This document shows, piece by piece, positions 1 through 64,000 of a stretch of 64,000 nt of DNA. Each line of letters begins with the position of its first letter. Within the stretch, counting starts at the first letter, position 1. This DNA comes from Macrocystis pyrifera (lineage: Eukaryota > Sar > Phaeophyceae > Laminariales > Laminariaceae), in assembly GCA_031763025.1 (NCBI GenBank), contig JASSKH010000001.1, forward strand, positions 7,993,024 to 8,057,023, written 5' to 3'. A model generated the notes under the pieces. That model saw only the letters and a list, made by a program, of their open reading frames with translations. It was not told the DNA's origin and did no database searches. The position numbers and the translations under genes were made by a program.

Positions 1-3000
1 TTGCTGCTGCTCCTCGCCGTGGTATTTCTCATCGGAGGACTTGACGCCATCGACATCGTGCGCCAAACATTGACCCAAACCCTCTCTACATCAGGCCACA
101 GGATAGACGCATCCGATGCCCCCTCTGTTCCTGCATTCGGTTTTGTATTGACACGAAAACCATACAAGATAGGCCCCAGACTTGATTCGTTGATTAAAAC
201 TACCATTCTTCCAATTTCGTTGGACTCGGGCGAGGGCGGTGTTCGCACCGGTGACGTGCTCTCGACGAATGAGTGTGGACGGGATACTTCCGACCGGGTG
301 CACATCGGGCCTCTCGGTGCTGTTGTCGGGACCGATGCCGGGACGTCAGACGTGGCGAGCAAGAGCGATCCAAGAAACGCGGACGTGTCTACAAGGCGAG
401 TGGATCGGCTCTCGAGTGTCGGTAGCATTGCTGTAGGCGATCCACGCCAACAGAGGAGAGTAAGCATGGAACCCGCCGCTAGCGGGAAGCCAAGGTGCTG
501 CGGATTTGGAGACAAGGTCAAGCGCTGGCTGTCGAGGTTGCCACTCGACAAGCTCAAGATCCTGGTGGTGGTGTGGCAGATTCTCACGGTTGGCTCGAGC
601 ATTACGGGGGTCGAGTTCCCCGCTTCATACTCGTGGTTCTTGTCGTGGATCAACATTGTCAATCTCGACATAGGAAACATCTTCTCGGCCTCGTGCGTCT
701 TGCCACCTGTAAACTTTTACGTGAGGCTCCTGGTTTCGACGGTGACACCTTTGGTGGTGGCGGCTTTGCTGTTTTTGACGTACCACTTGGCCAAGCTTAG
801 GGCGGGGATTGGGCGCGCTGGAGTGGTCGCTAGACGTGCTGCGTGGTCGAGGCATGTGGCGGCTGGATTGCTTCTCACGTTCTTGGTAAGGTTTGGATGT
901 GCATTATTCGTTGTCAATTAGCGAGGAGACGGGTGTAGCGTGGACGCGAAGATGCGAGAGAGCGTGGAGTTTGAACGTAGCCCATGCTGCATGTGTCGAA
1001 TGTCGATGTCGGCGGTTGTCGTAGTATTTAGGACGCCACGACCAACGCCTCCGGTTACACTATACTACCCTGTACTCGTTTTGTCCATTGTGGAAGGACG
1101 TTCCGAGGTGAAATACAGAGTTGCGAGGGCTAACGTGCCATCGACCGTAGCGTAGCACCGTTCAGACCCAACAGTTTCTATGCTCACATATGTCTTCATG
1201 CAAGCGCGTGAGTGTTGTTCTTTCAAGGGGAAAGTACACTCATCGTTTGTTGTTTCTGTTCTTGCTCTGCTTCTTGCAAAGTGTCTCTTCCTAACTGTGT
1301 TCGTCAACCACCACACCAAACAACTCTGTAAAGTCTCGTAAGGTGACCGATTCAATCGGTGTGCAACTGAGACCATCTGGCGGATGCCATATCCTACTCC
1401 TGCGGCACCGTGTCCAACGGTAGTGGGAAATAATCGAATGTCCGTCGTCATGTGCTTCGAATGACGTCTGGTCGTATATATTACCTGTGATAGCATCCTT
1501 GGTCTCTTCTTTCTCTCAAAACTGCAGGTATTCACTTCGACCTCGACGCTTGTGTTCAAGACATTCGCTTGCGACCACGAGGTTATCGACGGGGAGAAGT
1601 ATCTCAGGGAGGATTATAGCCTGTCATGTGAAACTCGGTTGCACACGTTTTTCGAAGTCTACGCGGGGTTCATGATCCTGGTGAGCAGGCCGGTGTGTCT
1701 ATCGCCTGTAGTATATCGATCGTTGTGTTTGCAGAATAACACATTTTTGTCATGTAAGCAAGGTGGGTTGGAGGTTGAATCCAGTTGCCTGGGTTTGACC
1801 CGTCTTGAGTTGTGTCCGTTCTGCTGAGTTGTCCAATCATGTGTTTAACGCTGCGCAGGTGTATCCGATTGGCATCCCAGTCTTGTACGCCGCCATTCTC
1901 TGGCAAAATCGGTTTTGCTCAACCCTCGCGTCAGTGCCGAGTTTTCTCGTGTCGACGATGTCGACACGATCCCCGGACCAGCGGAAGGAGACGACATCGC
2001 CTCATCTATAATCTCTACGACGACCAATAACTTCCATTCCTTTCAAGAGTTGCAAAAGCTCGATGAAAAAGTGAAAGCACGGAGAGAGCATCCGGAGCTG
2101 CTACCCTCGATGTTTCTGTGGAAGGATTTCGGTGAGCCTTGCAAAGGGACAAGATACACATGTAGGATGGTAACTTCACGTTTGTGCAGACCATATTCGT
2201 TTGTCTCTTTGTAGCGCCGAAAATGATACAGATGGTGTCCAGAGGAGGCAATTCCCGAATGATTGTCCTAGTTTAGCAGGTGCAGTCAGTACAATAGTCT
2301 AGATGTTCATTTATCGCCATTCTAGTGCAATCTCATTGTTAGTGGATAGTCATTGACCCCCAACAACTTCTAATTCGTGCCCAGGGCCCGACTTGTACTA
2401 CTACGAGGTGATGCGAGTGCGGCCGGAGGACGCTTTTGACCGGAGTGCTCATTTTCATCGCGCCGCACACCGCTTCACAAGCGGCTATGGCGTGTATTTT
2501 TGCCTTCGTGAGCCTGGTGGGATTCGAGATCATGCGGCCCCACATGGATCCGGCTGACTCGTGGCTCTACCGCCTGGTGAGTGGTAATGCAGACCCGATA
2601 AGTTACGTTCATACGAGGTACGTCGTATAGGATGAGCTTGTGCCCGCAGGGGGCTTCGGGTAGGCTTCTTCGGAGATAGAGTATCGTAGTATGGTAGAGC
2701 TGGAGTGCCGGATGTCTATCGTTGTGACTTGGGTGCTTCGCGAAAGGAGGTTCGCCGGGAGTTCGCGGCGTGGTGCAGATTTTCAGGGCGTTGTAACGCA
2801 TGTCAAGCAACGCTATTGAAAAACTTTGCGGTGAACGCCCGAGCCGTCGAGGGCGTTACCGACGATCCGTAAGCGACCTCTGTATAAGCCCCTTTCCAAT
2901 CGCAACTCTTACACCGCTTATTCAACCATCCCCAGGGTGGCGTGGTCATATTCTTGAGCAACTTCCTGGCGCTGTTAATCAAGGTCGACGCCGGAGAACA

Positions 3001-3442
3001 GGGTGATCGCGCAGTGTTTGGAGGCGTTTTGGTCGCTATTAACGTGCTGTTGATACTGGCGATAATCATAACCTCCTGGTTCGCGGTGCAGCAGTCTGTG
3101 GACGACTTTCGAGGGGAGCACAACTCTCTCACCATAGCGACGGCCATGCTGACTGCAGAGCAATATGCCGCAAATAGCGCCCGGCTCACACGCAGCGGGA
3201 GGGCTCAGATACCGCCGGCCTTCTTCTCTGTCGAACCCGATGTCTCACCGTCTGATAACAACATGGGTAAGGACGCTTCGCCGGTATCGAAAGGGTGCCA
3301 CTCAAGCGGCGCAACTGTCAAAGCTACGAGCGAAAGTTCCGTGTCGGAATTCGTGCGCAGTGGAGGCTTGAACACTTCAACTCTGGACATGTTGCAAAAC
3401 TGCATCCATGATCGGGGTGGTCCAGGGTCAGAAGAGAGTTAA
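1..3442 (+). pseudogene. Paralog A: 3' part of a Cys-rich/multi-TM membrane protein, frameshifted
   Basis: This is the C-terminal half of the same family as the gene at 30640-41354; its 5' part lies outside the window. Exons read from alignment to the two other copies: <1-885, 1528-1680, 1859-2131, 2385-2576, 2936-3442, all with GT-AG borders and intron phases 0, 0, 1, 0. The product would be a polytopic membrane region with conserved stretches such as LPLDKLKILVVVWQIL, YAGFMIL, VYPIGIPVLYAAILW, MFLWKDFG, YYYEV and FLSNFLALLIKVD. Two lesions are visible. One base is missing near 1909-1914, just before the LLNPR-equivalent codons, and sends the frame into a stop at 2009-2011. One extra G sits at 2413 (gatGcgag against gatcgag in B). 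Together they restore the frame, so the last exon reads to the stop at 3440-3442. It is either a recent pseudogene or carries assembly errors. Function is not established; a receptor- or channel-like role is inference. Confidence 0.75.
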
Positions 3443-25297: not shown

Positions 25298-25495
25298 ACA
25301 AATACATTTAGTTTGGTTGGCTTTGGGCCATGACGCCAATACGTTTTGGTTGGCTTTCGGCTTTGACGCCAATTGCAGTTATATTGCAATTGGGGTAATA
25401 GCCCAAAGCCAACCAAACTAAATGTTATGACGCCAATTTCAGTTATATTGCAATTGGGGCAATACCCAAAGCCAACCAAACTAAATGTATTTGTG
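25298..25495. repeat. Hairpin-forming triplicated unit in left arm
   Basis: ACAAATACATTTAGTTTGG... at 25298 pairs over about 30 bases with its complement ending at 25495. Inner copies of AAAGCCAACCAAACTAAAT at 25405 and 25469 show that a roughly 65-bp unit was repeated in both orientations. The right arm has a single short version near 47270-47320. Confidence 0.7.
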
Positions 25496-25639
25496 TAAGA
25501 AACGGTGAAGGATGTAATAATCGCGTTTTTTGTGAATGTAATGTGAAACGTAAGATCGGGTGACGCAAGAGTAAGAATGACATTCGTCTAATAATAAGGA
25601 TAACATCTTTCATCAGTGCCGGGAGAGAGTGGAGTAGTG

Positions 25640-25905
25640 CATTACATGTGGATGATATACAACATACAGGCTGTTGTTTCAAGGAAGGTTCGGGACAGAG
25701 GGGAAAGCAGCAGTGCCGGCAACGACAACGGTTATGGAAATGTTGTATAGTTGCTGGGCGGCCGCGATTTCGATTTAGCCAGCATAGGAGTTTGGATGAG
25801 ACATGATATGTAAATAGTCTTCCAGGCTGCTGTAGTAACGAGGCGGGAGGCCCAGAATGTGGATCTGTCAGGGATGTACATGGCCCGGGAGTGGCGTGCA
25901 GGGAA
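25640..25905 (-). pseudogene. OTU-like 3' exon, left-arm copy, with stops
   Basis: On the minus strand this matches the better-preserved right-arm exon: ILGLPPRYYSSLEDYLHIM, then HPNSYAG. It has an in-frame TAA where the right arm has GGC TAC, and a TGA before the final NNSLYVVYHP block. The upstream Zn-type exon seen in the right arm (KCYNC) is missing here, replaced by sequence next to the poly-G tract. Confidence 0.5.
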
Positions 25906-26039
25906 TGGCGGGGGGGGGGGAAGGGGGGGGGGGGGGGGGGGGCAGAATTCATTGTTTTTGTACTGCTCTACAGCGGCACAACAGCAGTACGTAATCGCTT
26001 GCTATACGACGGCAGCAGCAGCAGCAGAAGCAGCAAGTA

Positions 26040-27065
26040 TATGCGTAAAACGCAGCAGGAAAACGGCCAAAATATTTTTTTAACGTACCCAAACGACCAT
26101 TTGGGTGCAAAAACGACCAAGAAAAACAGTAATCCGAATACATAGAACAATCAGTGGATATTGAGCCAGCATTAGCAGTATCAGCCGCAGCAGTCGCAGC
26201 AGCAGCAGCAGCCGCAACGGCTTCGAGCGGTGGTTGCGGCGGCATTAGCAACTTTAGCAGCAGCAGAAGCAGCAATGGATCGCCGCAGCGTTGGCAGCAG
26301 TAGCGGCATAGCAAAGATATGATAAAAAAGAGGAAACAAAGTATGTACCCTGGTATGCCGCGACCGCAAAAACTACGAAATTTCATTGGCGAAACAAAAA
26401 TATGTACACACAAATGACCAGCATGATGTACGACGTACAACGCAGCAGCAGCACCACAGCAGCGTAGCAGTGATATGGAAAGAACGAAGCCCAAAACGAG
26501 AAAAAGCAGCACGTACGCAAAATGCAGCAGCAAAATGTCCAAAATATTTTTTCCAGGTACCCAAACGACCATTTAGGTACAAAAACGATCAAGAAAAACA
26601 ATAATCCGAGTACATGCGAACATCCAGTGAATATTGCGGGAGCATTATTATTAGCATTAGCAGCATTAGCAGCAGCAGCAGCAACGGATCGCCGCAACGT
26701 TGGCTGCTGCGGCAGCAGCAGAGCAACGATATGAAAAGAAGGAAGAAAAAAACTACGTACCCTGGTCTGCCGCAATCGCAAAAACGTACGGTAATTATTG
26801 ACGATACAGAATATGTACACACACATGAGTGTAATACACACACAAATCACGTCCAGCATGATGTACGGCAACAACGTAGCAACACCACAAAAAAAATCGT
26901 TGACGATAAAGAAATATGTACACACGCACAAGTGTAATAGGCACACAAATCATGTCCAGCATGATGTGTACGGGAACAGCGCAGCAGCGCCACAAAACGA
27001 CAAAACGACCAAGAAACACAATTATCCGAGTACATACGAACATTCAGTGAAATTGCGGCACCACT

Positions 27066-27105
<40 letters not shown>

Positions 27106-27920
27106 GCAACGGATCGCCACAGCGTTGGCAGCAGCAGCAGCATAGCAACGATATGAATAGAAGGAAGAAAAAAAGTATGTACCCCGAGTCCGTCCGAAAA
27201 GTATTTTTGGTACCTCACTATACATAGACCCACCCCCGCATGCTGTACGGCAACAACGCAGCAGCAGCAGCATAGCAACAATACGAAAAGAACCAAGCCA
27301 AAATACGAGAAAAAGTAGTTCTTACGCAAAATGCAGGAGCAAAACGACCAAAATATTTTTTTTACGTATAAAAAAAAACATTTGGGTACGAAAACGGCCA
27401 ACAAAAACAATAATCCGCGTTGGCAGCAGCAACATAGCAACGATATGAAAATAAGAAAGAAGAAAAGTATGTACCCTGGTATGCCGCGATCGCAAAACCT
27501 ACGGAAATTCAGTGACGATACAGAAATATGTACACACACAAGTGCAGCATGATGTACGGCAACAACGCAGCAGCACCACAGCAGCAGCAAGCAGCAGCAT
27601 AGCAACGATAGGCTAAAAAATCAAACCAAAAACGAGAAAAAGCAGTACGTACGCAAAATGCAGGAGCAAAACGACAAAAATATTTTTCACGTATCAAAAG
27701 AACCATTTGGGTACAAAATCGACCAATAAAAACAATAATCCGAGTACATACGAACATTCAGTGGATATTGCGGCAGCATTAGGAGCAGAAGAAGCTACAG
27801 CAGTAGCAGGAGCAGAAGCTGCAATGAATCGCCGCAGAGTTGGCAGCAGCAGCGTTGGCAGCAGCAGCAGCAGCAGCATAGCAACGATATGAAAATATGG
27901 AAGAAAAAAAGCATGATGTA
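26040..27920. repeat. CAG-rich composite satellite, left arm
   Basis: At least five diverged higher-order units are spaced about 330-470 bp. Marker CAAAATATTTTTT is at about 26070, 26539, 27349 and 27676, with a partial unit at about 27000. Each unit combines CCATTTGGGTAC, AATAATCCGAGTACAT, a CAG run, CAACGATATGAAAA, TATGTACCCTGG and CAGCATGATGTACGGCAAC. Long poly-Cys/Leu or poly-Gln frames through it are composition artefacts. Confidence 0.8.
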
Positions 27921-28104
27921 CCCTATTAATAGTATGCCGCCATCGCGAAACCTACGGAATTTTATTGACGATCCGAAAATATGTACACTTCCAGCATGAT
28001 GCACGGCAACAACGCAGCAGCACTACAGCAGCAGCAAGTGCACAGCAGCAGCAAGTGCACAGGAGCAGCAGGTGCACGGCAGCAGCACTCATGGCGTGGC
28101 GCTG

Positions 28105-28105
<1 letters not shown>

Positions 28106-28169
<64 letters not shown>
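28106..28169. repeat. (CAG)n, about 21 units
   Basis: Pure run of about 21 CAG triplets. The corresponding site in the right arm (about 45118-45137) has only about 6 CTG triplets. Confidence 0.95.
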
Positions 28170-28170
<1 letters not shown>

Positions 28171-28529
28171 GAAAACGAGCAAAGGGGGTACGTAGGGTCA
28201 CCAAAACATGTACACATAGAAATCGTGTGCACCGAAAATGCACCACAGTAGCAGCAGCACTCACATCGTTCGGTGCAGCGGTGACGGCGACAGCTGAATC
28301 CTCCGTTCCTTCGTTCACGTCCCGCAAACAGTTGTGCATGTGCGCGTTCGCGTGCACTGTGTAAGAGGAGCCGACGCGACGCACGAAGGGGAAAGAACGA
28401 GCATGGATGAGTCCAAAAAATAATAAACGCTTTGAGGTAGGTTTGTATGCAAAAAGGCAATTGAAAACCCCCAAAAAACGTACTGGCAACAGACAGCATT
28501 CAACAATAGACCCAAGACACTCACCACTG

Positions 28530-28990
28530 TCAGCAGTCTCGAGGGAGTACGAGACAGTCCCTTCCTTGTTCGGGCGAGCACAGAACTCGCAGTTGGTTGC
28601 CCAATACAGGATGATCCCGCCATCATCGCACATGAGATCCTCGCAGGTGGCGAAGGCCACGTTTTTGCCACCAGGCGCGGAGTTCTTGGGCAAGTAAGTA
28701 AGTGCTGGTCCGTGCACCGGTCGCAAACAACAGTCGGCACCAGGTCGGTCTTTGTCGTTGCCGCTCTCTTGCCAGAGGGCGAGGACCACGCGCCTGTCGA
28801 CGAGGGGGGGGTGAACTTAGGGGGCGTGGGGAAGGGAGAGGCGGGGGTTGCAGCACCAGCAGGTTCGCCACCGACAGCAGCAAGCAGGTTGGCCGCCTAC
28901 AGCTGCATCTAGACGCCGTTCGTCGAAGGCGAGACACCTCTTCTAGGCGTTGTGCGAAGAGCTGTCTATTGGTTGCAGTTTTTTTTTTAT
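28530..28990 (-). pseudogene. Cys-rich exon of the inverted-repeat gene, left-arm copy
   Basis: The minus strand encodes a Pro/Arg-rich lead (LLVLQPPPLPSPRPLSSPPP) and then, across a frame change caused by a duplicated ACTT near 28690, a block with paired cysteines: VVCDRCTDQH, GGKNVAFATCEDLMC, ATNCEFCARP, ending ETADS at a good donor (GTGAGTG). Three Cx2-4C pairs suggest a zinc-binding module. It is the first part of the gene whose 3' exon is OTU-like. I do not recognise the family. Confidence 0.4.
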
Positions 28991-29207
28991 AAATTTTGAA
29001 ATACGTCAGCTGTGAGTTCGACTGATTAAATAGTTGAGTTTGCGAAGAAGAAAGAAGAAAAGTTGTTCGGCTGTTTGGCTGTTCGGCTGTTTCAAAGAGG
29101 AAGGGCTGGTTGCGAAGAGCTGTCTATCAGTCGGTCTGTCTCCCAAGAGCTAGCAAGTGACAACGACCTCAAAAATCGTAATTATAGTTGTATTTATAGT
29201 TGTATTT

Positions 29208-30639: not shown

Positions 30640-33600
30640 ATGAACATGATAACCCTTCGTCTCCACCAAGCACGACCTAGCGGAGCTACAGCATCAGTAT
30701 TGTTGCTGTGTGTGTTTCTGCTGCTGGCAATAAGCTCGTCCCGGACGTCGGCCCAAACTTTATGTGGAGTAGCGCAAACTACGCCAATTCGAGTCGAAAA
30801 CGCAGCTGGAGTGGACATCCTAAGGGCGGCTCTCAACTGCACCGGCGGCGGTAGGGTGGAGGCTAAATGGGCTGGCTATGTCCCACTTAGCGCTCCGCTT
30901 GCGGTTGCGGAGGGCGCCTTCTTGTCCGTGACGGGGGAGGATGATCTCGCCGAGGTTCACGGCGACGGCTCTCAGAGTAACGGGACCCGTCTGTTCGTCG
31001 TTTCTCCGGGTGGTGGTCTAACTCTGAGTGGGCTGAAGCTGTCAGGAGGTTCGGCGGAGGCTGGCGGTGCGGTATTTTCGCGTGCCGCAAGCGTGACGCT
31101 GGATAACTGCGTGTTCGAAGGGAATGTTGCCACCGGCGGCAACGGGGGTGCAGTGTTGGTCGAGGGGGGGAACTTGACTATAGTCGGGGGAGAGTTCTTG
31201 TCCAACAACGCGACTCGATACGGTGGCGCCGTGCATGCTGCCAGCAGCTTGTTGAAAGTTCGAGGAGGATCGAGATTCAAGCGCAACGAGGGGATCGGGG
31301 GCGGTGGGCTGTTCTGTGGAATAGGCGAGACGGCATCAGATGAACAGGCCGCTTATTGCTCCATCGTAGACGCGGAGTTCGTGTCCAACAATGCTTCCCG
31401 CAAGAGCGAAGATTCTATTCCTGGTTTTTCAAACCTCGATGGAGGAGGAGCTACCATGTTCCTGGCGGCCAGTGCCGAAGTAATCAATTCTACGTTCAGC
31501 CGGAACCACGCCCGGCTTTCGGGTGGGGCCCTGCATGGAGGGCTCGACACCAAAGTCTTGGTGAACAGATGCAGGTTTGATAACAATACGTCGGGTAAAT
31601 ACGGTGGCGCGATCTCCGCTGCTTCCATGACCCTGGGAGGAGGCACACAACTCACAAACAACAAGGCGGAAGAAGACGGCGGCGCGGTGAGTGCTACCAT
31701 ATACCGGTGCTGTTGTTTCTTTTTCACGGGTGCATGGTACTACATACGGCAGTAGTCCTCATTCATTGGACAACGTCCTCTTCTTTTTGTACGCACTGCC
31801 GTGTAACAGGAGTCGTTGCAAAACAACCAACATACTCACACATGTATGGTGTATACTTCTCGCAAGTATTTCTACGCCCACATGTACGTGTATACTGCTG
31901 TATATAGTCTATATCGTACCTGGTACAGTGTAAGCCCACGAATAAAACATGGCTTCATAAAAATGACCCACGTTTTGGGAAACGCCAAGAAAACTGAAAC
32001 TAAGGAATTGTTATCAGCGACGAACGCCACACTATACTCAAGGTGGTTCAAGCATGGTGTCAGAACGAAGTTGTATGGTTTGGTCAGGTTGGGCGTTTCT
32101 TGTCGACGTGCCCACACTGAAATCAAGCACATATATATTATGATAGTATTATTCTTAGTCGCTGCTCCTTTCATGGTTATGGACGGTGGAAGAAAGCGCT
32201 AATCTGTTCTAGCGATAAAATGTCAAGACACGCGCCGTTCGTAGTTTGGATGATGGAGAAGAGCTTGCTTAGCCACCCAGGATGAGAGGTACATCACGAC
32301 GTCACGAGCGACATCTTCAAATCTTGTTTTTAACGTGCGTCATTTTGGGTCAAAACTGCAAAAATATTCCGAAACATCTCAGAATGCGTCCCTACCAATC
32401 AAAACGTCTAAAAGTCCCGCCGTTCGGCGGTAAGGTGTTCTTGTCGTCATATATAATCCCTGTCTAAAATGTCTCCTTCAGACCGCACACACCATTGTGG
32501 ACAAGTGACGCTCGTCGCTCGAACCTGCTGTACCCACAAATTTGCATCGGGTACATCGCAGCACATACGTATTGATCCTTCGACATTCAGTGCATGGAGA
32601 CCCTTCATCGGTCGGCCACGTCGACATCCTTGGACCCGCCGCCTGCTTAGGGCGCTCGGCGCTCAGACATGAGCCTGTATGCAGATTTCACATTAATTGA
32701 TGTGACTACTGCAGCTATCCCATCGTATTGTTTCTTACATGTTGTCAATCGATTTATGTAATAATTAGTGTTTACGGTGAATAGCATGCATTCCTAGCAT
32801 GGAGTACTACAGCACAAAATGTACTAAAAAAACATCCAGCGTTGACTATTGTATAGCCCAGTAATGCGGGTGCATCAATATCAAACAACAATTGCAAGTT
32901 GGTAGTTGTTCCCTGGAGATTCTGGGGTTGCACACGTACACACGTTTGAGTCTTGGGTGCACGACGTACACGTGATCCTTTGTGGCAAAAATAGCGCCGT
33001 GATACCGTTTGTACACGCAATGCTGACTAAAGGGATTGCCTCTAATCGGCGAGTCCGACAATCCGGCTCAACGGCCAGACGGACCTCAGGTGGTGCTTCA
33101 GTTAGATATGAATTATTATTATAAGGCAAAACGTCACCGCTGATTGCCAGCCTTCTCTACCAGTAATGCACGCTACCGAGCTTACACTGGATAGGCTACT
33201 GCACTACAATCGCTACGAAACGATGATTGCGACAATTAAGTCATTTTGATCATATTACGGGGACGTTGGTACGTTCAAGAATGCGTCAAGTACCCGCGCG
33301 TAGGTATTTCATCAACATATGTATACGGCTTGGAACTAGAGCAGAGGATTGGCAACCAAGGTCCGTATTTCGTGGTTGCAGAATGGTTGATGCAAATGAA
33401 CGAGAATCCTGAGCTGTTTAGCCCATTCTTGCACTTCTTTGGCCCCAACCACTTACTACCCGACATGGGAACGTAGTTTTGCGCCCAGCAGCTTGTATAC
33501 GGCTTGGAACTAGAGCAGAGGATTGGCAACCAAGGTCCGTATTTCGTGGTTGCAGAATGGTTGATGCAAATGAACGAGAATCCTGAGCTGTTTAGCCCAT

Positions 33601-36600
33601 TCTTGCACTTCTTTGGCCCCAACCACTTACTACCCGACATGGGAACGTAGTTTTGCGCCCAGCAGCGTCTTTGACGACCACTCCCGCACACATATACCAT
33701 CCGCCTGGAGAACAACAGTCTTCTAGTGAAGGCCAGTTCTTCTTCGGGAATGCAGCCATTGTGATATGCTCCCTGGCGTGAAAGTAAACACTTCAGCGTT
33801 TGTTAGAGTTTTTGTGTTGCTCGCTCGCAACTTCGAATACACGAAAACACATCGTGAGTCGTTTCTCGCTGCCTACGACTGCCGTCTGGCGCACCCGACG
33901 CCCTCACACACCCCATCTGGAGCATCCTCTCAATTTTGCGGGCTGTAGTTTCGTGTGAAGAGCTGTAGCTGTTCGCAAATGAAGAGCAAACGTTCAGGTG
34001 GGGGGAGGGGGGGTTGTCTCATTTTGTGCACCCCAATTTTCGACCAATTTCGACAACAGGATCGCCTCTTAGCCGAGGTGTAGGCCTCTGTTGAGAACCT
34101 GCGGGGGGTCAATTTCGAGAAAAACACAAGGTGCCCTGATGAACTTCTGACAAGTCGCCGTCGTTCTAGGGTTAGCACCAACCAACCTTGGTTCTAAACG
34201 GAACGAGTTGAGATAGCGATGTGTTTTTTCTGTTCCGATAAAACGTATAGATATTAGAGTGGCCGGAAACCCGTGGACGAAGAGACGCTTGGGTGCCAGC
34301 GTGCCCGTAACCAACACTCTCGTCAGTAAAAGTTGCAAGCAAAACCAACTGTTTCCTGGAAATCACACCCCGGGGCTATGTTCTAACATGAAGCTTGTCC
34401 CGTGAAATAACTGTGCACACTGTTTCCTCCGTCACTTGGAAGCCTGTTAGGTCACTCGAATGCACCATTTCGTAGCTTAAAGCTCGTGCAATGACCCATC
34501 CTTGCCACTCACGGGTTTCCTGATTCGCAGTTGCGCTTTCAAGATAGAATGGTCATGGGGTAGGAAATTCCAAACAATAAACATTCGGGACGGTAACTTT
34601 ATTTGCAGACGCGATTGCCATGGACGGGGGTGTTGAGAAATGGGCATCAACAGCTTATTGTCATGATCGTTTGTAGCCGCTGTAGTTCGACAGCTTCTCT
34701 CCCCAGCTCTCAGTAGCATAGAACACTTCCATAGCGAACGCCCAACAGGAAGCGCAGACTGTTAACTCAAGAGTTATGTTTTTCGCATATATCTCAAGCT
34801 ACCTGATATATGGGGGTCAGTGCCAAGCAAGACTGAAATGTTCTTGACGATGTCACGTCACCTCTCAACGCCTTCTCGACTTAGTGACCGCCGATACATC
34901 TGGTTTTATATGTAGGAAATTTGACATATCGCGGAAACGGGCGACTGTTATCCACGTATGAAATAGGCCACGTACTCGTGACCACATAGCTTCTATATCT
35001 ACTGGGTATATTGCTGGTTCAGCACGAAGATTAGTTGTGCTCGACGTCGATGGGTAGAAGTGACACTTTCGTATGAAGAACACGCACACCAATTCGTTAC
35101 AGGTGTCATATGCAAGTGGTGAATACTCAAACGCTCAAACCAAAATTAAGGCCCAGTTGATAATATTTTTGCGATGCTGTATTTCTCCAGCCTAGACCGT
35201 CCGCAACTCCGTTGTGCAGGTGCTGGGGTGGAATGCGAATGGTACGATCATCTTTAACGATGTCCTCTGCGCAGGAAATTTGGCTGAATTCGAAGGAGGC
35301 TGTTTCTATGGCGTCGGTACGGGTATCATCAATGATGGAACGGTTATGATTGACAATTCGGGAGACAGCGGCGGTGCTATATGTGAGCGCAAAAAATGTC
35401 AATCTGGATCCCTTAGGGGGGTTACTGCTGCTGCTACCCGGACTGGTATGACAATTTCAAACATATATTGGGGCACCGAAATGCCAGACGCAAACATCTC
35501 CTTAAGCAATGTTGTTGTCATATCGTGTGCTGGTGACTCATGCGATAAACGGGTTGCTCGGGCGGCGCAAGGGAGTTGGTTTAGCCATGAATAGGTCGTG
35601 CACATTTTTGTACAAAATGAAACCTCGGTATGTGTATACGTTCGACGTATGTCATGAGCCAGAAACCTGATCGCGGTATTTCGCCGACATTGCAATGGCT
35701 ATGGTCAAAGCGACCTAGGTAAGTTGGCCCAAAGGCGTGCTGTGCGCCAACGAGGATTGTGACAATCCCCATGGAGGACGACCCCTCCGACCTTACATCC
35801 CAGATATATATCAGTACTTGATGCACCGTCAGCGAGGTTGATTCACGTTCCGTTGCGTGTAATTGTTCCCACCATACACCTCCCAGTTGCGGATGACGGC
35901 AGCGACATCAGCGTCAGCGGTGGTAATTTCTCGGGCGGATCCACCACAAGAGGCGGGTTCCTCTTCGCTGATTTCAAGACCCGTGTGAAGATCAGCGGGG
36001 GGGTGATGGAAGACAACGTTGCGACATTAAAAGGTGGAGCGATCTATTGCAACGGGGACGAGGCATCAAATATTTCGATCGAAGGAGGAAGCTTCCGAAA
36101 TAACAAGGCACTGGAATCGGGCGGGGCGATCGCATTGTGGGGAGCTACTACCCTAGTGACAATCACGGGAGGCACTTTCGAGGACAATGAAGCAACGTGA
36201 GCCTGCTACAGTAACTACCAATAGATCCCTTGAGTCGATAGAGTGGCGTGTGTGGCTTGTGGGGTCTTGGTTTGGGCCGCATGATCTAGTGCAGGTATAC
36301 CGAAGCACTGAATCCCGCTGCTTGATGCCGAAATCCCTACGCCTTGACACATAAGAAACGTCCTGGCATGTGTATGTACGCGTTCCCCTCTCCTTCTCGT
36401 CGGAGAGTGTCTATGCGCGCTGGGTTTGCTTTTGATATATCTTCCCGTGCTAAGACCTGGTTGCCCTGTCTTTTATTGCCGCCCACCACCCACTTCCAGA
36501 CAATTCGGCGGTTTCGTTCTCGTGGAGGAAGAAGCTAGTATTTCTTGCGCGGGGGCTACCGTCAGAGGAAACTCCGCCGGCGACCAAGGCGGTGGGATCT

Positions 36601-39600
36601 ATGCCCAAGACGCCACGTCGGTGAACTCTAGCTGTGACTTGATCGCAAACGAGTCGCCCCAAGGAGCGGCAATCCACCTGACAAGCGTGAAGAGCGCAAC
36701 GTTCGTAAACCACGACGTCCACAATAACCTCGCCTTGGGTGGCAGCGTCATGTATGTGTCCGCGAGCCCCGTCGTTGCGAGAGGCGTCGTGTTCAAGTCG
36801 AGTGTCGGCCTCTATGGATATTCCACTGAACGCGCGGTACAGACGGACGACAACACTACGCTTCACGCCGAGAGATGCGTGTTTGATGGTTGGCTAGGTG
36901 ACACCATTATATTCAACACAAACGCGGCGGTCGGCTCTCTTGTCCTCGACAGTTGTGATTTTAGCAGGAGCTCCGCAACCATGCCGGTGTTATCACCTAA
37001 CTCGAACGCCGAGATCCGTAACGCCGTCATAAGTAGCCACACGTTCGGCAGCGGCACCGAGAGCACTCTGAATGGTTCGTTAGCGCTTGTGGACCGAGCT
37101 TTGGACTGCAGTTCCAACCCGTGCGGGGCCGGGGAATGCGATAACACCACACTTGGAGTACTGTGCGAGTGCCTTGAAAACGGCGATTGTCTACATGACG
37201 GCGGAGAGCTATTTTTGCATATCAAAAGATCTCCGGCTGCAGAGACCTTTGATCCAAACCCGGTGACGTTCGAACTGGTGATCGCATCCGGAAACGGGAC
37301 GACGTATACCATATGGGACCTGGACTTCGAGGCCGAAGGGCTTTACTTGGACGTAATACCGTCCCGAGGTGTTCTTCCTCCTGGCCATAACATCACCGTC
37401 GCAGTCACCGGAACTCCTGCCACGCAGGACGTGGGAGGGAAGCTCTCGATCAGGTTCACCTTGACATCAGTAGGCAGTTCTAGTCCGGCCTCAACCACTA
37501 ACACCAGCCTGGAGATGTCCGCGACCTTTTACCTTTGCCCAGCGAACGAATACGCCAGTCCACAGAACGACGACACCATGTTGATCTCGTGCAAAACGTG
37601 TGATACCATCAAGGGCGATGAAGGTGTGGATTGCACGAATCCTGGGCCGACGTTGGCCTCGCTCCCGATCCGGCCGGGTTACTGGCGGTCGAGCCAGGCC
37701 TCGTCGGTCGTGTTGGAATGCTTGCACCTGGAAGCGTGCAAAGGCGCGACGAAAATATCGCGTTCCGACGACTACTGCGAAGATGGTTATACGGGCCCAT
37801 GTGAGTCCATGTTCAGCTGAGCTGTACGTATCGACTGCCCCGCATTGTCTTTCACGAAGACGTCTGCTCACTGTGTTCCGCTCGTCTATTGTGTCCAGCA
37901 ACGACCTTCGTATTGCAAGCTAGTGCTGCTTCTGATGGTGATTGTGGCCTTTCATCTCATCTGCTACTAAGATACCACGATAGTGTTCGACGCAAAATGC
38001 GCTTCGTTTGGAACTTCTTATCTTGCAACTGAAACGCTGAATGTCTCCGCGTATTGGTGTAAACATTTGTTCGATTTCGTCTGGAGGAAGCGTTTGTGCT
38101 ATGTATTTCACATTTATCCTGGTCATCTCTCAGTATCCACTCTTATCTCTCTCGGTATTGCTATTCTGTCAGACTGTGCCGTTTGCACGGAAGGGTACTG
38201 GAGTGGAGTCAGCAACACTTGCCACGAATGCGACGACACGACGGTCCACGTGCACATTGCGGTGTGCGCACTTTTCGCAGTGGTAGGTATTGTACTGCTG
38301 CTCCCCGCAGTAGTGTACCTCATCGGAGGGCTGGGAGCCATGGACATTTTCCGTCTGGCTGCTGTTCGACAGCGGTCAGTGCAGAGCACGACGTCCATCG
38401 TTCCGGAACAAATCCATTTAGAACCATGTCCAAAAATGAACCCTTTCAACACAACAGTTCCTCTTGTCCATCCTTTGGCGTCCAAGGATAAGTGCTGCGG
38501 TGGTAACCGTGGTTCGGAAGGCATTACAGCGTTCTCCAACAACTGCTCGGAACCGGAAAGTTTTAATCGGGCGCATGCTGGGCGTTTCGGCCATGTTGTT
38601 GGGGTTGCCGTCAAGGTGCCGGCCGTCACCAGCGGAAAAGCTCCTACGCACGCCGTGGTGTCTGCCTCTCGAACTGTGAGGCCTTCGGCCGTTACTACGA
38701 CGACTGTAGGCGAACCACATGAAAACAGGGAATTAGAAACTGAAGCCGACAATGGTGGGATGCCAACGTGTTGTGCGTTTAGTGACAAAGTAAAGCGCTC
38801 GGTGTCGAGATTGCCACTCGACAAGTTAAAGATTTTGGTGGTGGTATGGCAGATTCTAGCTGGATTCTCGAGCATCACGGGGGTGGAATTCCCCGCTTCC
38901 TACTCGCGGTTCCTGTCGTGGATCAGTGTCGTCAACCTCGACATAGGGGACCTTTTATCGGCCTCGTGTGTTCTGCCATCTCTAACCTTCTACGCGAGGC
39001 TGCTGGCTTCGACGCTGGCGCCATTGCTGTTGACGGCTGTGTTGGTATTGACGTACCACATGGCGAAGCGTAGGGCTGGCCTTGGGCGCGCCGGGGTAAT
39101 TGCAAGAAGGGATGCGTGGTCGAGGCACGTGACGGCGGGATTACTTCTAACATTTGTGGTGAGCTTGACGTATTCGGTTCTACTGCAGATGTCGGAAGCG
39201 CCGGGCGGGATGTTGAGAAGCAGGTTAAGCACGGGGATGATGTAGCTTATGCGTGCCACTCGTATCGGCATGCCGGTGCTGAAGTTGACGGTAAGACGTC
39301 GACCACGCCCACGTACTGGAAACGCGTGGAGCCGTCTTCCGTCGACCGTCTCTTTTACGTCGCAATATGTACATTTTGTTTTATTATGAACTACAAATTA
39401 AGCTGTTGATGCCGTATACATTACACGACCTCAGGCGACAGCGGCCAAGTCATCGCTCAGGCTGGACTCGGTATCAATCACGATAGAATGTGTATTGTTG
39501 CCGTGCAGATAGTGTTGAATGCTGACACGTTCCAAAGCCCCACTTGTCTCATTTCAGTAGGTCGTGGCCACCCGCTGTGTACCTCGATACTTCAGCCTGG

Positions 39601-41354
39601 GATTCCAAATGTTTTCTTGTATCGCCGGTTGCAGGTGTTTACATCGGTGTCCACCGTGGTGTTCAACACCTTCGCCTGCGACGACGGTGTTGTCGATGGA
39701 GAGAGCTACCTCAGGGTCGACTACAGCATTTCGTGCAAATCCAACTTGCACATGTTCTTTCAAATCTACGCGGGGCTCATGATCCTGGTGAGCTGGCCAA
39801 CCCGTCTACTGAGAGTCTGTTGAAACTGGATGTATCGATAGAAGTTGGCACAGTGCAACACGCATGTCATGGGGGCAAAGTAGTGTAAGTAATGGTGCTT
39901 GCTTTCTATAACATACGTTTTTAGCCTGTCTTCACTGGTTCCCTTCGACCGCATGGTTCCGACGTTTTTGCCGGTGCCCAGGTGTATCCGATTGGAATTC
40001 CTGCGCTGTACGCCGCCATCCTCTGGACCAATAGAGCGTTGCTCAATCCACGCGTCCCAGCTGACCTGATGTAGTCAATGAATCAGCCACTGGAGCCGAC
40101 GCAGAAAGAAGGGCCGACATCCCCTCTTTAGTACTCAGCACCAAGCAAAACGACCGTACCGAAACCGGCTGGCCCTCTCTGAAGTCGCGGCAGTTGGACA
40201 ACTTAGTGAAAGCACGAACGAGTCATCCGGAGCTGGTCCCCTCCATGTTTCTTTGGAAGGATTTCGGTGAGAGTTAAATATGGAACCTGGCACTGCCCAA
40301 CGGTTATATGCAGTTCGGGCGCACGAACTAACGAACGAAACAGTGTATAGTACAGTAGGCTTTCACATTGTTTTGTGGTTGTTGGTGAGGCGCTGAGGCC
40401 ATTTTATTTGGACTAACCTGGGGTCCTATTGGTGATTGTTGATGCTGTTCCGGCCGGCGCAGGCGGATTTCACAGAGTGCAATGATATTGGACAGCGTGT
40501 CACGTAGCGCCAGTGGTCTGCTACCTTGTTGTGTACCCCTTGGCATTCATCGTTAGAAGCGCGTCACATCCTGTAACATCACCGACCTCCGTTAAACCGT
40601 ACGCAGCTCCCGCCATGTACTACTACGAGGTGATCGAGTGCGGCCGGAGGATGATTTTGACGGGGGTGCTTATTTTCGTCGCGCCTCGCACCGCCTCACA
40701 AGCAGCCGTGTCTAGCATATTTGCCTTCGGAAGTATAATGGGGTTCGAGCTTATGCGGCCCCATACGGATCCAACGAACTCGTGGCTCTACCGCCTGGTG
40801 AGTCGTGGTGCCATGCTGAAATCTTACGATATCCAATAGGGTTGTGTTTGGGGATGCGCTTGCGGAGGTATAAGTGTGCTCGTATCATGAAAGATCGTGC
40901 AACGCATCGCTACCGACACAGTCAATTTACACACATCCTTGCTAGGGTTCGTCTTGTATGCTACGGGCACGCCGCATGTCGGCAGCATGGAAAGCGTGTT
41001 CATTTTGGTTTGCCAAGAAACACGTAGAATTGCCACATCTGAGTTGCCAAGGGCACGGTCGACCAACATAACTAAACTTATACTCCCCCCCCCCCCCCCC
41101 CCCCCCCCCCCGCTTGCGTACAACACTTACGCCATGTTCCCAACCGTCTACAGGGCTGTGTGATAATCTTTTTGAGTAACTTTCTGGCGTTATTGATCAA
41201 AGTGGACGTTGGAGAAGATGGCGACCGTGCACTGTTTGGGGGAATTATGGTGACGGTCAATGTCTTGCTGGTCATCGCTGTTGTGGCAAGCTCCTGGTTC
41301 ACGGTGCAGCAGTCGGTGGACGACTCTCGCGAGGAATATGATCCTTCGCCATGA
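30640..41354 (+). CDS. Paralog B: beta-helix / Cys-rich / multi-TM surface protein, 3' end disrupted
   Basis: Nine exons with GT-AG borders: 30640-31686, 35220-35382, 35887-36196, 36500-37800, 38173-39158, 39635-39787, 39982-40266, 40607-40797, 41154-41354. Frames join correctly through exon 6. ATG at 30640 precedes a signal peptide (ASVLLLCVFLLLAISSS). Residues ~110-650 form a right-handed beta-helix with repeated GGAV/GGAI and FxxN motifs (GGAVFSR, FEGNVA, GGALHGG, FDNNTS), as in chlamydial Pmp repeats. An EGF-like unit (CSSNPCGAGECDN) follows, then a Cys-rich module joined across intron 4 (GYTGP+YCAVCTEGYW), then about eight TM segments with LPLDKLKILVVVWQIL and VYPIGIPALYAAILW. Exon 7 is one base short and stops at TAG 40072-40074 (1350 aa). 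A second one-base loss lies near 41340-41352. Likely at the cell surface; a receptor- or channel-like role is inference. Not seen: any enzyme active site. Confidence 0.8.
33321..33665. repeat. Exact tandem duplication of a 174-bp unit in intron 1 of B
   Basis: 33321-33494 is repeated from 33495 to about 33665 with no mismatch that I can find, so the copy is recent. Because 174 is divisible by three, frames stay open through it on both strands (58-residue repeat). Confidence 0.95.
41085..41111. repeat. Poly-C tract (27) in last intron of B
   Basis: Run of 27 C ending about 42 bases before the acceptor AG of the last exon (41154), inside what would be the polypyrimidine and branch region. Confidence 0.95.
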
Positions 41355-44195: not shown

Positions 44196-44467
44196 TATAA
44201 ATACAACTATAATTACGATTTTTGAGGTCGCTGTCACTTGCTAGCTCTTCGCAAACAGCCCTTCTTCTTTGCAGCCGAACAGCCAAACAACCTTTCTTCC
44301 TTCTTTGAAACAGCCGAACAGCCAAACAACCTTTCTTTCTTCTTTCTTCCTCGTTAAACAGCCAAACAACCTTTCTTCTTTCTTCTTCCGCAAACTGCCA
44401 ACCAATAGACAGCTCTTCGTACGGCGCCTAAAAGAGGCGTCTCGCCTTCGACGAACGGCATAGATAG

Positions 44468-44850
44468 GTGCAGCTGTCGGCGGCCAAGCTGCTGCTGTCG
44501 GTGGCGAACCTGCTGGTGCTGCAACCCCCGCCTCTCCCTTCTCCACGCCCCCTAAGCTCACCTCCCCCTCGTCGAGAGGCGCGTGGTCCTCGCCCCCTGG
44601 CAAGAGAGCGGCAACGACAAAGACCGACCTGGTGCCGGCTGTTGTTTGCGACTAGTGCACGGACCAGCACTTGGTCAAGAACTCCGCGCCTGGTGGCAAA
44701 AACGTGGCCTTCGCCACCCGCAAGGATCTCACGTGCGTGGTGGCGGGATCATCCTGACAGGGCAACCGATTGCGAGTTCTGTGTTCGCCCGATCAAGGAA
44801 GGAACTGTCTCGTACTCCCTCGAGACTGCTGACAGTGGTGAGTGTCTTGG
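44468..44850 (+). pseudogene. Cys-rich exon of the inverted-repeat gene, right-arm copy
   Basis: Same Pro-rich lead and Cys-rich block as the left-arm copy. Here the first Cys pair reads VVCD*CTDQH (in-frame TAG), and a later deletion destroys the CDDGG segment. The CTDQHLVKNSAPGGKN join is intact here but broken in the left arm, so the ancestor can be inferred by comparing the arms. Confidence 0.4.
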
Positions 44851-45099
44851 GTCTATTGTGCATGCTGTATGTTGCCAGTACGTTTTTTCGGGGTTTTCAA
44901 TTGCCTTTTTGCATACAAACCCACGTCAAAGCGTTTATTTTTTTTTCTTCTCATCCATGCTCGTTCTTTCCCCTTCGTGCGTTGGGTTGGCTCCTCTTAC
45001 ACACATAGTGCACGCGAACGCGCACATGCACAACTGTTTGCGGGACGTGAAGCACACGATTTCTGTGTGTACATGTTTTGGTGACCCCACGTACTCATT

Positions 45100-46152
45100 T
45101 TGCTCGTTTTCGGCTGCCGCTGCTGCTGCTGCTGCTGTCAGCGCCACGCCATGAGTGCTGCTGCTGCTGTGCACCTGCTTCTCCTGTGCACTCGCTGCTG
45201 CTGTAGTGCTGCTGCGTTGTTGCCGTGCTGTGCACCTGCTGCTCCTGTGCACTTGCTGCTGCTGTATGTAGTGCTGCTGCGTTGTTGCCGTGCATCATGC
45301 TGGAAGCGTACATATTTTCGGATCGTCAATTCCGTAGGTTTTGCGATGGCGGCATACCAGGGTACATGCTTTTTTTCTTCCCTATTTTCATATCGTTGCT
45401 CTGCTGCTGCTGCTGGCTGCTGCTGCTGCTGCTGCCAACGCTGCGGCGATTCGTTGCAGCTTCTGCTGCTGCTAATGTTGTAGCTGCTTCTGCTGCTGTT
45501 GCTGCTAATGCTGCCGCAATATCCACTGAATGTTCGTATGTACTCGGATTACTGTTTTCTTGGTCGTTTTTGTACCCAAATGGTTCCTTTTGATACGTGA
45601 AAATATATTTTTGTCGTTTTGCTCCTGCATTTTGCGTACGTACTGCAATTTCTCGTTTTTGGCTTCGTTATTTTCATATATATCGTTGCTATGCTGCTGT
45701 TGTGGTGCTGCTGTGTTGTTGCCGTACATCATGCTGCACTTGTGTTTGTACATATTTCGGTATCGTCAACGAAATTCCGTAGGTTTTGCGATTGCGGCAT
45801 ACCAGGGTACATGCTTTTTTTCTTCCTTATTTTCATGTCGTTGCTATGCTGCTGCCAACGCGGATTATTGATTTATTGGCCGTTTTTGTACCCAAATGGT
45901 TTTTTTGATACGTAAAAAAAATTTTTGGTCGTTTTGCTCCTGCATTTTGCGTACGTACTACTTTTTCTCGTATTTCGTATTGTTGCTATGCTGCTGCTGC
46001 GTTGTTGCCGTACAGCATGCGGAGGTGGGTCTATAGTGAGGTACCAAAAAAACTTTTCGGACGGCCTCGGGGTACATACTTTTTTTCTCCCTTATTTTCA
46101 TATCGTTGCTATGCTGCTACTGCCAACGCTGTGGCGATCCGTTGCCGCTTCT

Positions 46153-46193
<41 letters not shown>

Positions 46194-46479
46194 GCTTTTA
46201 GTGCTGCCGCAATATTCACTGAATGTTTGTATGTACTCCTGGTCGTTTTGTGGCGCTGCTGCGTTGTTGCCGTACATCATGCTGGACATGATTTGTGTGT
46301 CTATTACACTTAAACTTGTGCGTGTGTACATATTTCTGTATCGTCAATGATTTTTTTTGTGGTGCTGCTGCGTTGTTGCCGTACATCATGCTGCACGTGA
46401 TTTGTGTGTGTACTGTACTACACTTGTGTGTGTACATATTTCTGTATCGTCAAGGAAATTACGTACTTGCTGCTTCTGC

Positions 46480-46516
<37 letters not shown>

Positions 46517-46520
46517 GTCG
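45100..46520. repeat. CTG-rich composite satellite, right arm
   Basis: Same higher-order unit as 26040-27920 in inverted orientation, with about four units. Markers GGTACATGCTTTTTTTCTTCC (at about 45361 and 45806) and GTACATCATGCTG recur. Confidence 0.8.
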
Positions 46521-46664
46521 TATAGCAAGCGATTACGTACTGCTGTTGTGCCGCTGTAGAGTAGTACAAATGATGAACTCTGCCCCCCCCCCCCCTTCCC
46601 CCTCCCCCGCCATTCCCTGCACGCCACTCCCGCCCCGCGTACCCTATATGTTTACTTCGACCAG

Positions 46665-47145: not shown

Positions 47146-47299
47146 TGAAATATGTTATTCTTAGTATTAAACGAATGTCATTCTTACTCTTGCGTCACCC
47201 GATCTTACCTTTCACATTACATTCATAAATAAACGCGATTATTACATCCTTCACCGTTTCTTACACAAATACATGTATTAATAGTTTGGTTGGCTTTGG

Positions 47300-61287: not shown

Positions 61288-64000
61288 CTAGCGTGGGGTG
61301 TTGACACCTATTCGCGTCCCAACCACCGCCAGCATTGCGCTGGCGCAACTATCTACAAAGGTGACGGTAACAATATCTCGCGGCACAGTATCGCTTGCAC
61401 TGCCTCGTTGACGCCCAGTCGAATATTCACTACGCCCAGCTGGCCGCAGAGACACGCGCCTAGCAGACAGCAAGCCCGGCGAGATTATTTGGACGCGCCT
61501 CGGCGTGTGAGTCGGTGACTGTGCTTTTGTCCTCACTCTGTTGTTAAAAAGGATACTCGCCCACGTAGAGGTGCTGCCTTCATCATCAGAGTCGCTAACC
61601 ATCTGTCGAATGGCAAACCACGAGAGCCAGAGGACGGAGAGAGCCAGCACCACGTTTACGGTGACCAGACATTTTCCCAGAGTCTCGAGGTGTGAATCTT
61701 CCGCGATATCTAGCTTTATCATCAGCGCCAGGAAATAGCTCAAGAATATCACCACGCACCCCTGTAGATGAATCAAACACAAAACAAAGTGGGTCACGTG
61801 CGAGGGGGCCAAAGAAACACGAATTGGGTGCTGATAGCGCGTATCAATATTGGTGCTGCACTCAGCCACTGGGCATTGCATGTTGAGTGCATTACACTGC
61901 GTGTACTAATGTGTCTTCGAGAATATCTGCAGTAGATTTTACTTATTGGAACATGCGCTAATCATGAGGCGCACTTCCAACGGGCGATTGCCCATTACGC
62001 GAATACTAATAGCACAGCCGCAGCATACAAAACGATTGAACTGACTAGCATTCGTGCACTGAAAAATATCCTAAATCTATACGTCTACCGCAGTACAAAT
62101 ACAGCTTCACGTCTCACCAGGCGATAGAGCGACGAGTCCACGGGGTCCACGTGGGGCCGAACGAGCTCGAAGGCCAGCAGACTAACAAAGGCGAAGATGC
62201 AAGCCGTGGCCGCTTGTATAGCGCTGTGAGGCGCATTGCAAATTAGAACCTCTGTCAGAAGGATCCTCCGGCCGCACTCAACCACTTCGTAGTAGTAAAC
62301 GTTGGACCCTGCGTACGATGGTGGTCAAGCAAATGAAGTGTTCAACCCAATATTTAGCGTGCTCAGGCTACCAACCAAGCTACCAAAACAATTTAGGCAC
62401 GCCGAAATCCTATCGAGATGATATTGCAGATATGGTGAAAAAAAACTTCATCGCTCAATCACAAACCACGTACGACGTTTGCAATTTTGTCTCCATACCC
62501 CGCTAACCCTCACCAAAGTCCTTCCATAAGAATATCAAAGGGACCAGCTCTGGATGCTCCATCCGTGCCTTCATTTTTTCGTCCAGCTCTTGCAACTCTT
62601 GACGGGACCAATACGCCTTGGTCTGGCCATTTGATGCTGTTAGTAGTATCACAGAAGCTGTATCGTTCCCTTCATCAACGCCTGTCCCCGTAGTATCGTC
62701 TCTGGCGCTATAGCCCTCGTCTTCCCCGGCGGAGTAGATACGAGGGTTGAGCAGTTTCCGTTTTCTCCAGAGAATGAGGTAGTACAAAACGGGGATGCCG
62801 ATCGGATACACCTTCACGACCACCGGACGTTGATCGGGACAGGTTGTATGAAAGGACACATATCTAGAAGGAGACGCATGGCGCCTCCCGAACGCGACCA
62901 ATATCGTGCAAGTACATACCGCCAAGCACGCCGCGCAGTTTGTAGTGGACGGTACATCATGCTAGGCATGCAGCAACACACCAGTGTGTGCTCTTGGTAA
63001 CACTATCGGCACCCCGACTGACTCACCAAGATCATGAGCCCTGCGTATAAAATATATAGCTTATGCGTGTGTGTACCACACGATATGCTGTAATCTGCCC
63101 TGAGGTAGCTCTCGCCCTCCACAACATCGTGGTCGCAAGCGAAGGTCTTGAACACCACAGAAGAGGCAGAGGTGAACATCTGCACTTGAAACGACGGAAA
63201 GAGAACTACAGCTGTAGACTTGCCGGAATGACTACTTGCCCGCAAGCGGAAATAGAATGGTGGCCACGTGACGATGAAAGCAAGGTTTGGCGACAATATA
63301 GCCGTTTGAAATTGCAGCTGCAAGGCAAAACGCCGACCAGTCACTACTACTGGGCCCCACAAACTCAACTAGTAGACTCTGATAGGTTAAGCTCGTGATA
63401 TCGTTTATCATTCACGAAGCATGCCGACCGTTACGTCATGTGCCCATTGATAGCAATGAATAGTGCTGTGTTGTGCAGTACATATGCCATAGGAGCATCT
63501 CCGGCTCGACCAGCCCGTGCCGGAGAGCACGTCGGGAAAAACACCACATCCTGATGCGCACGCTAAAATCGGCTCGGAGCCGGAACCGATCCTAACCTCA
63601 ACTTGTTTCTTACCAGTGTACATTACTTCGTCTGACGGTTACATTTGCTGAAGACACAAATTATCACTGTGTACAGAATACTTACCAAGAATGTTAGAAG
63701 CAAGCCGGCCGTCACATGCCTCGACCACGCAGCTCGCTTTGCCCTCACCCCGGCCGATCCAATACCCGCCCGGAGCTTTGACATGTGGTACGTTACCACC
63801 AGCCCGGCAGCCACCACAAGCGGCGTGATCGTCGTAGCCAGTAGTTGTCGATAGAAATTCAAGGGCGGTAGAACGCACGACGCCGATAAGATGTACCCCA
63901 GGTCGAAGTTGAAGACGTTGACCCACGACAAGAACACCGAGTAGTAAACCGGGAACTCGACTCCCGTGATACTCGAAAACACGGTGAGGACCTGCCACAC
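61288..64000 (-). CDS. Paralog C: 3' part of the multi-TM membrane protein, intact
   Basis: Minus-strand exons: 63686->64000, 63027-63179, 62514-62811, 62118-62308, 61288-61761, all GT-AG (the 62811 acceptor is AAG instead of CAG). Phases 0, 0, 1, 0 match A and B, and the frame is continuous for 476 codons to the stop at 61288. Conserved blocks: SITGVEFPVYYSVFLSW, LSASCVLPPLNFY, WSRHVTAGLLLTFL, VYPIGIPVLYYLILW, ELVPLIFLWKDFG, YYYEVVECGRR, CVVIFLSYFLALMIKLD. About seven TM segments are visible. The C-terminal tail after WFAIRQMV is about 100 residues, polar and variable between copies, probably cytosolic. The 5' exons (beta-helix, Cys-rich module expected from B) lie beyond the right edge. It is the only copy of the three with no break in the visible part, so it is the best candidate for function. 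Confidence 0.8.

Follow-up and report, generated by a model that had tools for sequence, protein, structure and literature searches.

Structure of the locus

The window analysed here, a 64,000-nucleotide stretch of the kelp Macrocystis pyrifera (C189:7993024-8057023, in a searched genome of 537,376,219 bases and 223 contigs), carries on its forward strand a gene at 30640-41354 that joins a beta-helix ectodomain to a polytopic membrane core, and which sequence comparison places in a large kelp gene family whose size and clustering go beyond an earlier note on this DNA. We resolved ten coding blocks specifying 1522 amino acids without an internal stop, separated by nine GT-AG introns of agreeing phase, with an ATG at 30640 and a stop codon ending at 41354 in a model that keeps the reading frame throughout. 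Nine exons had been proposed in the earlier note, a difference that probably stems from the interval 39982-40266. Nor did that note anticipate the exchangeable ectodomain or the probable frame break described below. Also identified, by tblastn and exon-by-exon reading, were the 3' parts of two paralogues: copy A at 1..3133 on the forward strand, whose gene starts 16.2 kb before the window and contains frame breaks, and copy B at 61576..64000 on the reverse strand, whose gene starts near 75222, beyond the window. The exon plan is common to all three genes, apart from two features of both paralogues, namely a divided exon 3 and the union of exons 7 and 8.

Exon 1 (30640..31686, forward strand, as for all exons below) encodes a hydrophobic N-terminus, read as a signal peptide, and the start of a Pmp-like beta-helix, in an open frame that runs to a GT donor at 31687. 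The beta-helix continues through exon 2 (35220..35382; phase 0 in, 1 out), whose acceptor is kept in copies A and B, and through exon 3 (35887..36196; GT-AG, phases in agreement), which is divided into two exons in both copies at the homologue of residue 464, in the numbering of an earlier gene model that began exon 2 at 35196. This upstream acceptor was dropped, and exon 2 set to begin at 35220, because both paralogues use the homologue of the latter. Exon 4 (36500..37800) completes the beta-helix and continues through a stretch with EGF-like cysteine spacing and a linker to the first half of a cysteine module (PGYWR...GYTGP). Exon 5 (38173..39158), recognised by hydropathy and its CxVC start, supplies the second half (Y|CAVC...C..C), the first transmembrane helix, a variable loop and subsequent helices, such that the order after the beta-helix is EGF-like stretch, linker, cysteine module (PGYWR...GYTGPYCAVC...C..C) and hydrophobic core. 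Identity to copies A and B is 56% and 60% for exon 1, and 57% and 61% for exon 4, respectively.

The remaining core exons comprise exon 6 (39635..39787; 69% identity in copy A, 67% in copy B), with the end of a helix, a cysteine loop (TFACDDG..YLRVDYSISC) and the start of the next helix; exon 7 (39982..40070), with the VYPIGIPALYAAILW helix; exon 8 (40139..40266), with the FLWKDF segment; exon 9 (40607..40797), with YYYEVIECGRR plus two helices; and exon 10 (41154..41354; 65% identity in copy A, 52% in copy B), with the final two helices, the C-terminus and the stop codon. An alternative start of exon 9 at 40508 was dropped in favour of 40607. The motifs on which the earlier note had drawn, namely GYTGPYCAVC (its Y codon divided between exons 4 and 5), VYPIGIPALYAAILW and FLWKDF, were all recovered.

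A signal peptide followed by a long Pmp-like beta-helix had been suggested previously, and the profile evidence agrees: in addition to the hydrophobic N-terminus, PF02415 (Pmp repeat), the sole Pfam family detected at E <=1 in the whole window protein, scored 39.4 bits over four stretches (cut-off 20.6), and TIGR01376 (NCBIfam) scored 47.2 bits in exon 1 and 20.5 bits in exon 4 (cut-off 15). The motif GGA[VILM] occurs eight times in residues 37-760; 2000 shuffles contained it 0.39 times on average and never more than 4 times. The window protein thus carries, above curated cut-offs, the repeat type by which chlamydial polymorphic membrane proteins (PF02415, TIGR01376) are recognised. Unlike those proteins, it is encoded by an intron-rich algal nuclear gene and ends in a helical membrane core; no C-terminal autotransporter beta-barrel matched the whole protein in Pfam at E <=1, hydrophobic helices lying there instead. 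Searching the genome with PF02415 returned no match at E <=0.001, an uninformative result given that the window gene itself was missed. For the proposed EGF-like module the cysteine spacing fits and hidden Markov model (HMM) support is lacking; an 'Ig-like' label for the linker also found no HMM support, and we do not claim it. The cysteine module, joined over exons 4 and 5, resembles DUF7630 (PF24633) at 15.7 bits, below the cut-off of 27.

Between exons 7 and 8, the open frame shifts near 40068, between VYPIGIP... and FLWKDF, and the stretch 40071..40138 (forward strand) is accordingly either a 68-nt GT-AG intron that restores the frame, or coding sequence preceded by a frame break. Copies A and B code through the region homologous to exons 7 and 8 as one stretch, and peptide similarity spans the supposed intron; we therefore favour a short frame break, either genuine in this copy or introduced by the assembly, over an intron. 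Three frame breaks were found in copy A (homologues of exons 3, 7 and 9) and none were seen in copy B. According to PMC10498591, the assembly was produced with Canu from PacBio data and then polished by Racon, and single-base errors are therefore to be expected. Together, the probable break near 40068, the three breaks in copy A and the coding use of the homologous stretch in both paralogues raise the concern that the window copy may be non-functional; it is conceivable, if somewhat doubtful, that the family is functional and this copy a pseudogene of recent origin, which would be compatible with the role proposed below for the family as a whole. Speaking against a pseudogene are the single-base errors expected of such an assembly, the GT-AG pair that keeps the frame, and ratios of nonsynonymous to synonymous substitution (dN/dS) that indicate long constraint.

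Two repeat features touch the gene itself. Its 3.5-kb first intron contains a perfect 174-bp tandem duplication (33320-33666), either a recent event or an assembly error. An inverted repeat (25453-29198 and 44196-47313), with 84-92% identity among its main pieces and a CAG-rich interior, flanks the gene, and is possibly a pair of mobile-element copies or a duplication relict.

A kelp gene family and the pairing of its two halves

A search of the genome with the core (E <=1e-5; best 111 of 387 candidates scored) returned at least 198 matches. The 24 best correspond to close loci whose identity across the initial part of the core is 65-95%, the window gene and both its paralogues among them; 18 of the 24 lie within a 1.02-Mb span of contig C189. 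A search with a distant member (E <=1e-10; best 126 of 338 candidates scored) returned at least 126 places, 87 of the 126 listed covering nearly the entire 315-residue query in one frame, two of these 87 with a stop. Close and distant core places together amount to at least 150, on 60 contigs. This figure should be taken neither as the number of genes nor as a ceiling: a few places are two exons from a single gene, others are near-identical copies, and some carry stops. In one distant member (C202, from 7857000 onward), exons for beta-helix, linker, cysteine module and core follow one another in that same order along approximately 36 kb; two of the core pieces are weak (E 0.14 and E 0.033) and were placed by position. 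Three loci (L029, L030 and L032, at C189:8170952, 8105280 and 8224392) share 97-99% identity along 3.4 kb that include their introns, which indicates that the cluster has recently been enlarged or homogenised. Five further core copies of equal score and identity on three contigs (C192:160868, C192:209720, C209:63504, C223:15775758 and C223:15911971) represent either recent duplication or unresolved assembly copies. No description of the family was found in the literature, as judged on titles and the beginnings of abstracts and with most subscription papers outside reach, nor did literature searches on PF06011 (a fungal channel family discussed below) with algae, or on brown algae with right-handed beta-helix, return anything.

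Comparison among the three window copies indicates that purifying selection acts on both halves of the gene. For in-frame pieces of the ectodomain, dN/dS (NG86) was 0.277 for the window gene versus copy A, 0.294 versus copy B and 0.271 between A and B; the corresponding values for the core were 0.284, 0.279 and 0.276, with dS ranging from 0.97 to 1.50 across these comparisons.

The two halves were also found to travel together through the genome. A search with the exon 1 protein (E <=1e-10; best 127 of 224 candidates scored) gave at least 48 places, among which, as listed, four genes are counted twice as split matches. At 46 of these 48 listed places, a core follows on the same strand no more than 30 kb downstream, compared with six upstream on the same strand, four downstream on the opposite strand and none upstream on the opposite strand; outside contig C189, a core was present downstream at 26 of 26 listed places and upstream at 0 of 26. 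The two unpaired places are C189:7902277, which carries five stops, and C189:8127743, whose core lies 43 kb downstream. Conversely, 22 of the 24 close core places possess an exon 1 match within 45 kb upstream. At the join of exons 4 and 5, the split codon that opens exon 5 (AG, then two bases, then CxVC) was found in 27 of 30 loci, including the window's own three copies, and in all six distant loci (L043 has TT replacing A[CT]); the exon 4 end pattern was matched in 11 of the 30, within flanks of merely 1.5 kb.

By way of comparison, these findings strongly support the single spliced gene of the earlier note, given the common exon plan, the equal dN/dS of both halves and the genome-wide pairing of ectodomain and core. 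That note had named separate transcripts for the beta-helix and transmembrane exons as the outcome that would speak against it; the comparison goes far against such a separation. Since the case for one gene is comparative, one could still picture two adjacent genes, one for a secreted beta-helix protein and the other for a separate membrane protein. With 46 of 48 listed places paired, a codon and a cysteine module divided across the exon 4/5 join, the matching exon 5 start in 27 of 30 loci and dN/dS equal in both halves, we consider such an arrangement exceedingly improbable. A count that pulls the other way is that an exon 1 match is paired with only 21 of the 126 listed distant core places, the ectodomains of the approximately 105 others being either too different to detect or outside the reading done.

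One relative was identified among the prokaryote genome contigs scanned. Contig NHBY01000041.1 (L045), 10 kb in length and binned as a Synechococcus metagenome-assembled genome, has algal-looking content, and its bin label is probably wrong. Its cysteine module is 38% identical to its kelp counterpart over 72 residues and its core 32% identical over 355 residues (E 1e-36), in the same order; the module matches DUF7630 at 15.5 bits, again below the cut-off, and the core matches PF06011 at 14.6 bits. In place of the beta-helix, and with no intron needed, the same frame carries upstream FG-GAP repeats (8.9e-119, seven stretches) and ephrin-receptor-like repeats (1.2e-47, 11 stretches). A single in-frame stop (L045:3334-3336) separates this part from the core, and may be an error, a true stop or a reassigned codon. 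Because L045 joins the module and core to a different ectodomain, the ectodomain is exchangeable and the module and core constant, as judged from this one contig outside kelp. Related architectures had been named by the earlier note from stramenopiles and algae; L045 provides one alga-like case. Scans of viral contigs yielded no relative, and a viral origin is consequently without support.

Topology and probable kinship of the membrane core

Hydropathy, read without a topology predictor, indicates a polytopic core of eight or nine helices. Eight had been counted in the earlier note, and nine fits the topology better, placing the N-terminus outside, the basic loops inside and the cysteine pair of TFACDDG..YLRVDYSISC outside. 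Among 27 core sequences, the F, both C and one D of this exon 6 loop are invariant, with DG, YLR and Y nearly so; both E and both R of exon 9 are likewise invariant, and the Y and G of the exon 7 YPxG motif and the W of exon 8 are nearly invariant.

Several searches connect this core with PF06011, the Pfam family of fungal TRP-like channels. In the strongest of these, an unbiased scan of the whole genome, PF06011 gave eight matches at E <=0.01 (23 of 23 candidates scored), all eight inside kelp family places that had been found independently and seven with a beta-helix match 4.5-5.3 kb upstream, and it matched none of 14 control genomes. In a majority consensus of the core, PF06011 ranked first (21.9 bits, E 8.7e-5). 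It was also detected at E <=1 in 8 of 27 aligned cores (best 9.3e-5) and at E <=10 in five of five relatives read from one frame (E 0.0015, 0.075, 0.11, 0.049 and 2), and in none of six reversed sequences. Taken together, these results suggest that the core is probably a distant relative of the PF06011 channels, among them S. pombe Pkd2, A. nidulans TrpR and Flc, the link being a sub-threshold match that recurs in the same part of the profile.

A number of observations weigh against this kinship. Five of the eight genome matches share one score and are probably copies, leaving four different sequences. The best score in the genome, 27.2 bits, falls short of the cut-off of 28.5, which no family member reaches, and the matches, all eight within profile positions 227-411, are limited to the C-terminal half of the profile; for these two reasons we leave the family outside PF06011. 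The window protein itself shows no PF06011 match at E <=1 as a whole, or at E <=10 with its loop trimmed. Other families compete: EI24 (E 0.005, L040) and SfLAP (E 0.071, L043) outrank PF06011; a short DUF7129 match (LW..Y.P..YYYE) is commoner, in 13 of 27 cores (best E 0.013); and DUF6338, found in 3 of 27 cores, is second in the consensus (E 0.0018). After DUF7129 and PF06011, the next families occur in three of 27 cores each. The ML-type N-terminal lipid-binding domain of the fungal proteins was not found, PF02415 alone being returned for the whole protein (Pfam, E <=1), and no pore residue could be picked out in the core. Structure predictions were poor, with predicted local distance difference test (pLDDT) values of 38.9 for exon 4 alone and 38.3 for exon 5 together with both paralogues from the window, and sequence searches of PDB yielded no relative; matches to Psa28 (E 1.2 and E 0.95) were taken as chance.

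In PMC11277609, the PF06011 protein Pkd2 is described as mediating force-activated passage of Ca2+ and as possessing an extracellular domain ahead of nine helices, a layout similar to the one that best fits the hydropathy of the kelp protein. PF06011 also served as the model for finding TRP-like channels in Aspergillus, as stated in PMC8618638; neither PF06011 nor Pkd2 is mentioned in the passages of PMC11085791 consulted. Unlike the fungal PF06011 proteins, the kelp family combines a long beta-helix and a cysteine module in place of the ML-type domain, and occurs at very high copy number.

Proposed role and surroundings of the gene

We propose, at about even confidence, that the product of this gene is a cell-surface sensor formed by a single chain, in which a cation channel, probably Pkd2-like, makes up the core and the ectodomain is exchangeable. 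The beta-helix would bind wall polysaccharide or another surface ligand; by analogy with Pkd2, this arm, once it has attached to the wall or a different cell, might pull on or switch the core by way of the cysteine module, which would relay the pull or binding event; and the core would then admit cations such as Ca2+. The existence of many copies with diverged ectodomains would provide many binding specificities feeding one kind of output. The receptor or mechanosensory channel of the earlier note is thus a reasonable suggestion, the core pointing to PF06011, even as the match stays below the curated threshold and we infer both conduction and force sensing.

The same core could be read as that of a receptor or adhesion protein, which would signal through cytoplasmic partners without conducting ions, in the manner of an adhesion G protein-coupled receptor (GPCR). 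Large exchangeable ectodomains and a juxtamembrane cysteine module suit a receptor, and the core passes no channel threshold; on the other hand, at E <=1 the whole protein matched none of the GPCR models, none of which appeared among the 25 families listed for the 27 cores either, and PF06011 is the only named channel or receptor family to recur, such that we regard a non-conducting receptor as unlikely. Less plausible again is an Flc-type protein with an enlarged ectodomain, serving in transport or trafficking (as a flavin or other carrier, or as a secretion factor). PMC8618638 reports that Pkd2 homologues in some fungi have been proposed as transporters of flavin adenine dinucleotide (FAD), with calcium channel activity as well; approximately 150 places with exchangeable ectodomains of a ligand-binding type are, as an argument rather than a test, not obviously needed for such a carrier.

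Returning to the sensor reading, its broadest form is put forward as speculation that we consider unlikely to hold in full: brown algae may have greatly multiplied a set of force-gated, Pkd2-like calcium channels whose lipid-binding ectodomain gave way to exchangeable wall-binding arms (a beta-helix here, an FG-GAP propeller in another alga), giving a sense of wall tension and of self versus non-self independent of plant receptor kinases and animal integrins. The means by which brown algae perceive their wall, their neighbours and microbes are still largely to be established. With approximately 150 places, a constant and possibly channel-forming core and differing ectodomains, the family offers a concrete and testable candidate for such sensing. 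If the channel kinship is true, a domain best known from fungi would be linked to a separate origin of complex multicellularity. A specialist would be surprised by the size of the family, by its constant-plus-variable build and by a channel-like core that Pfam misses.

Elsewhere in the window, Rfam and tRNA scans returned no matches. Open frames on the reverse strand at 14574-15797 may, as judged by eye, resemble a retroelement reverse transcriptase (KPRPVINAR stretch). Finally, inverted and tandem repeats with a 20-bp unit of the GGGGATCCCCTAAG type occupy 48714-50924.

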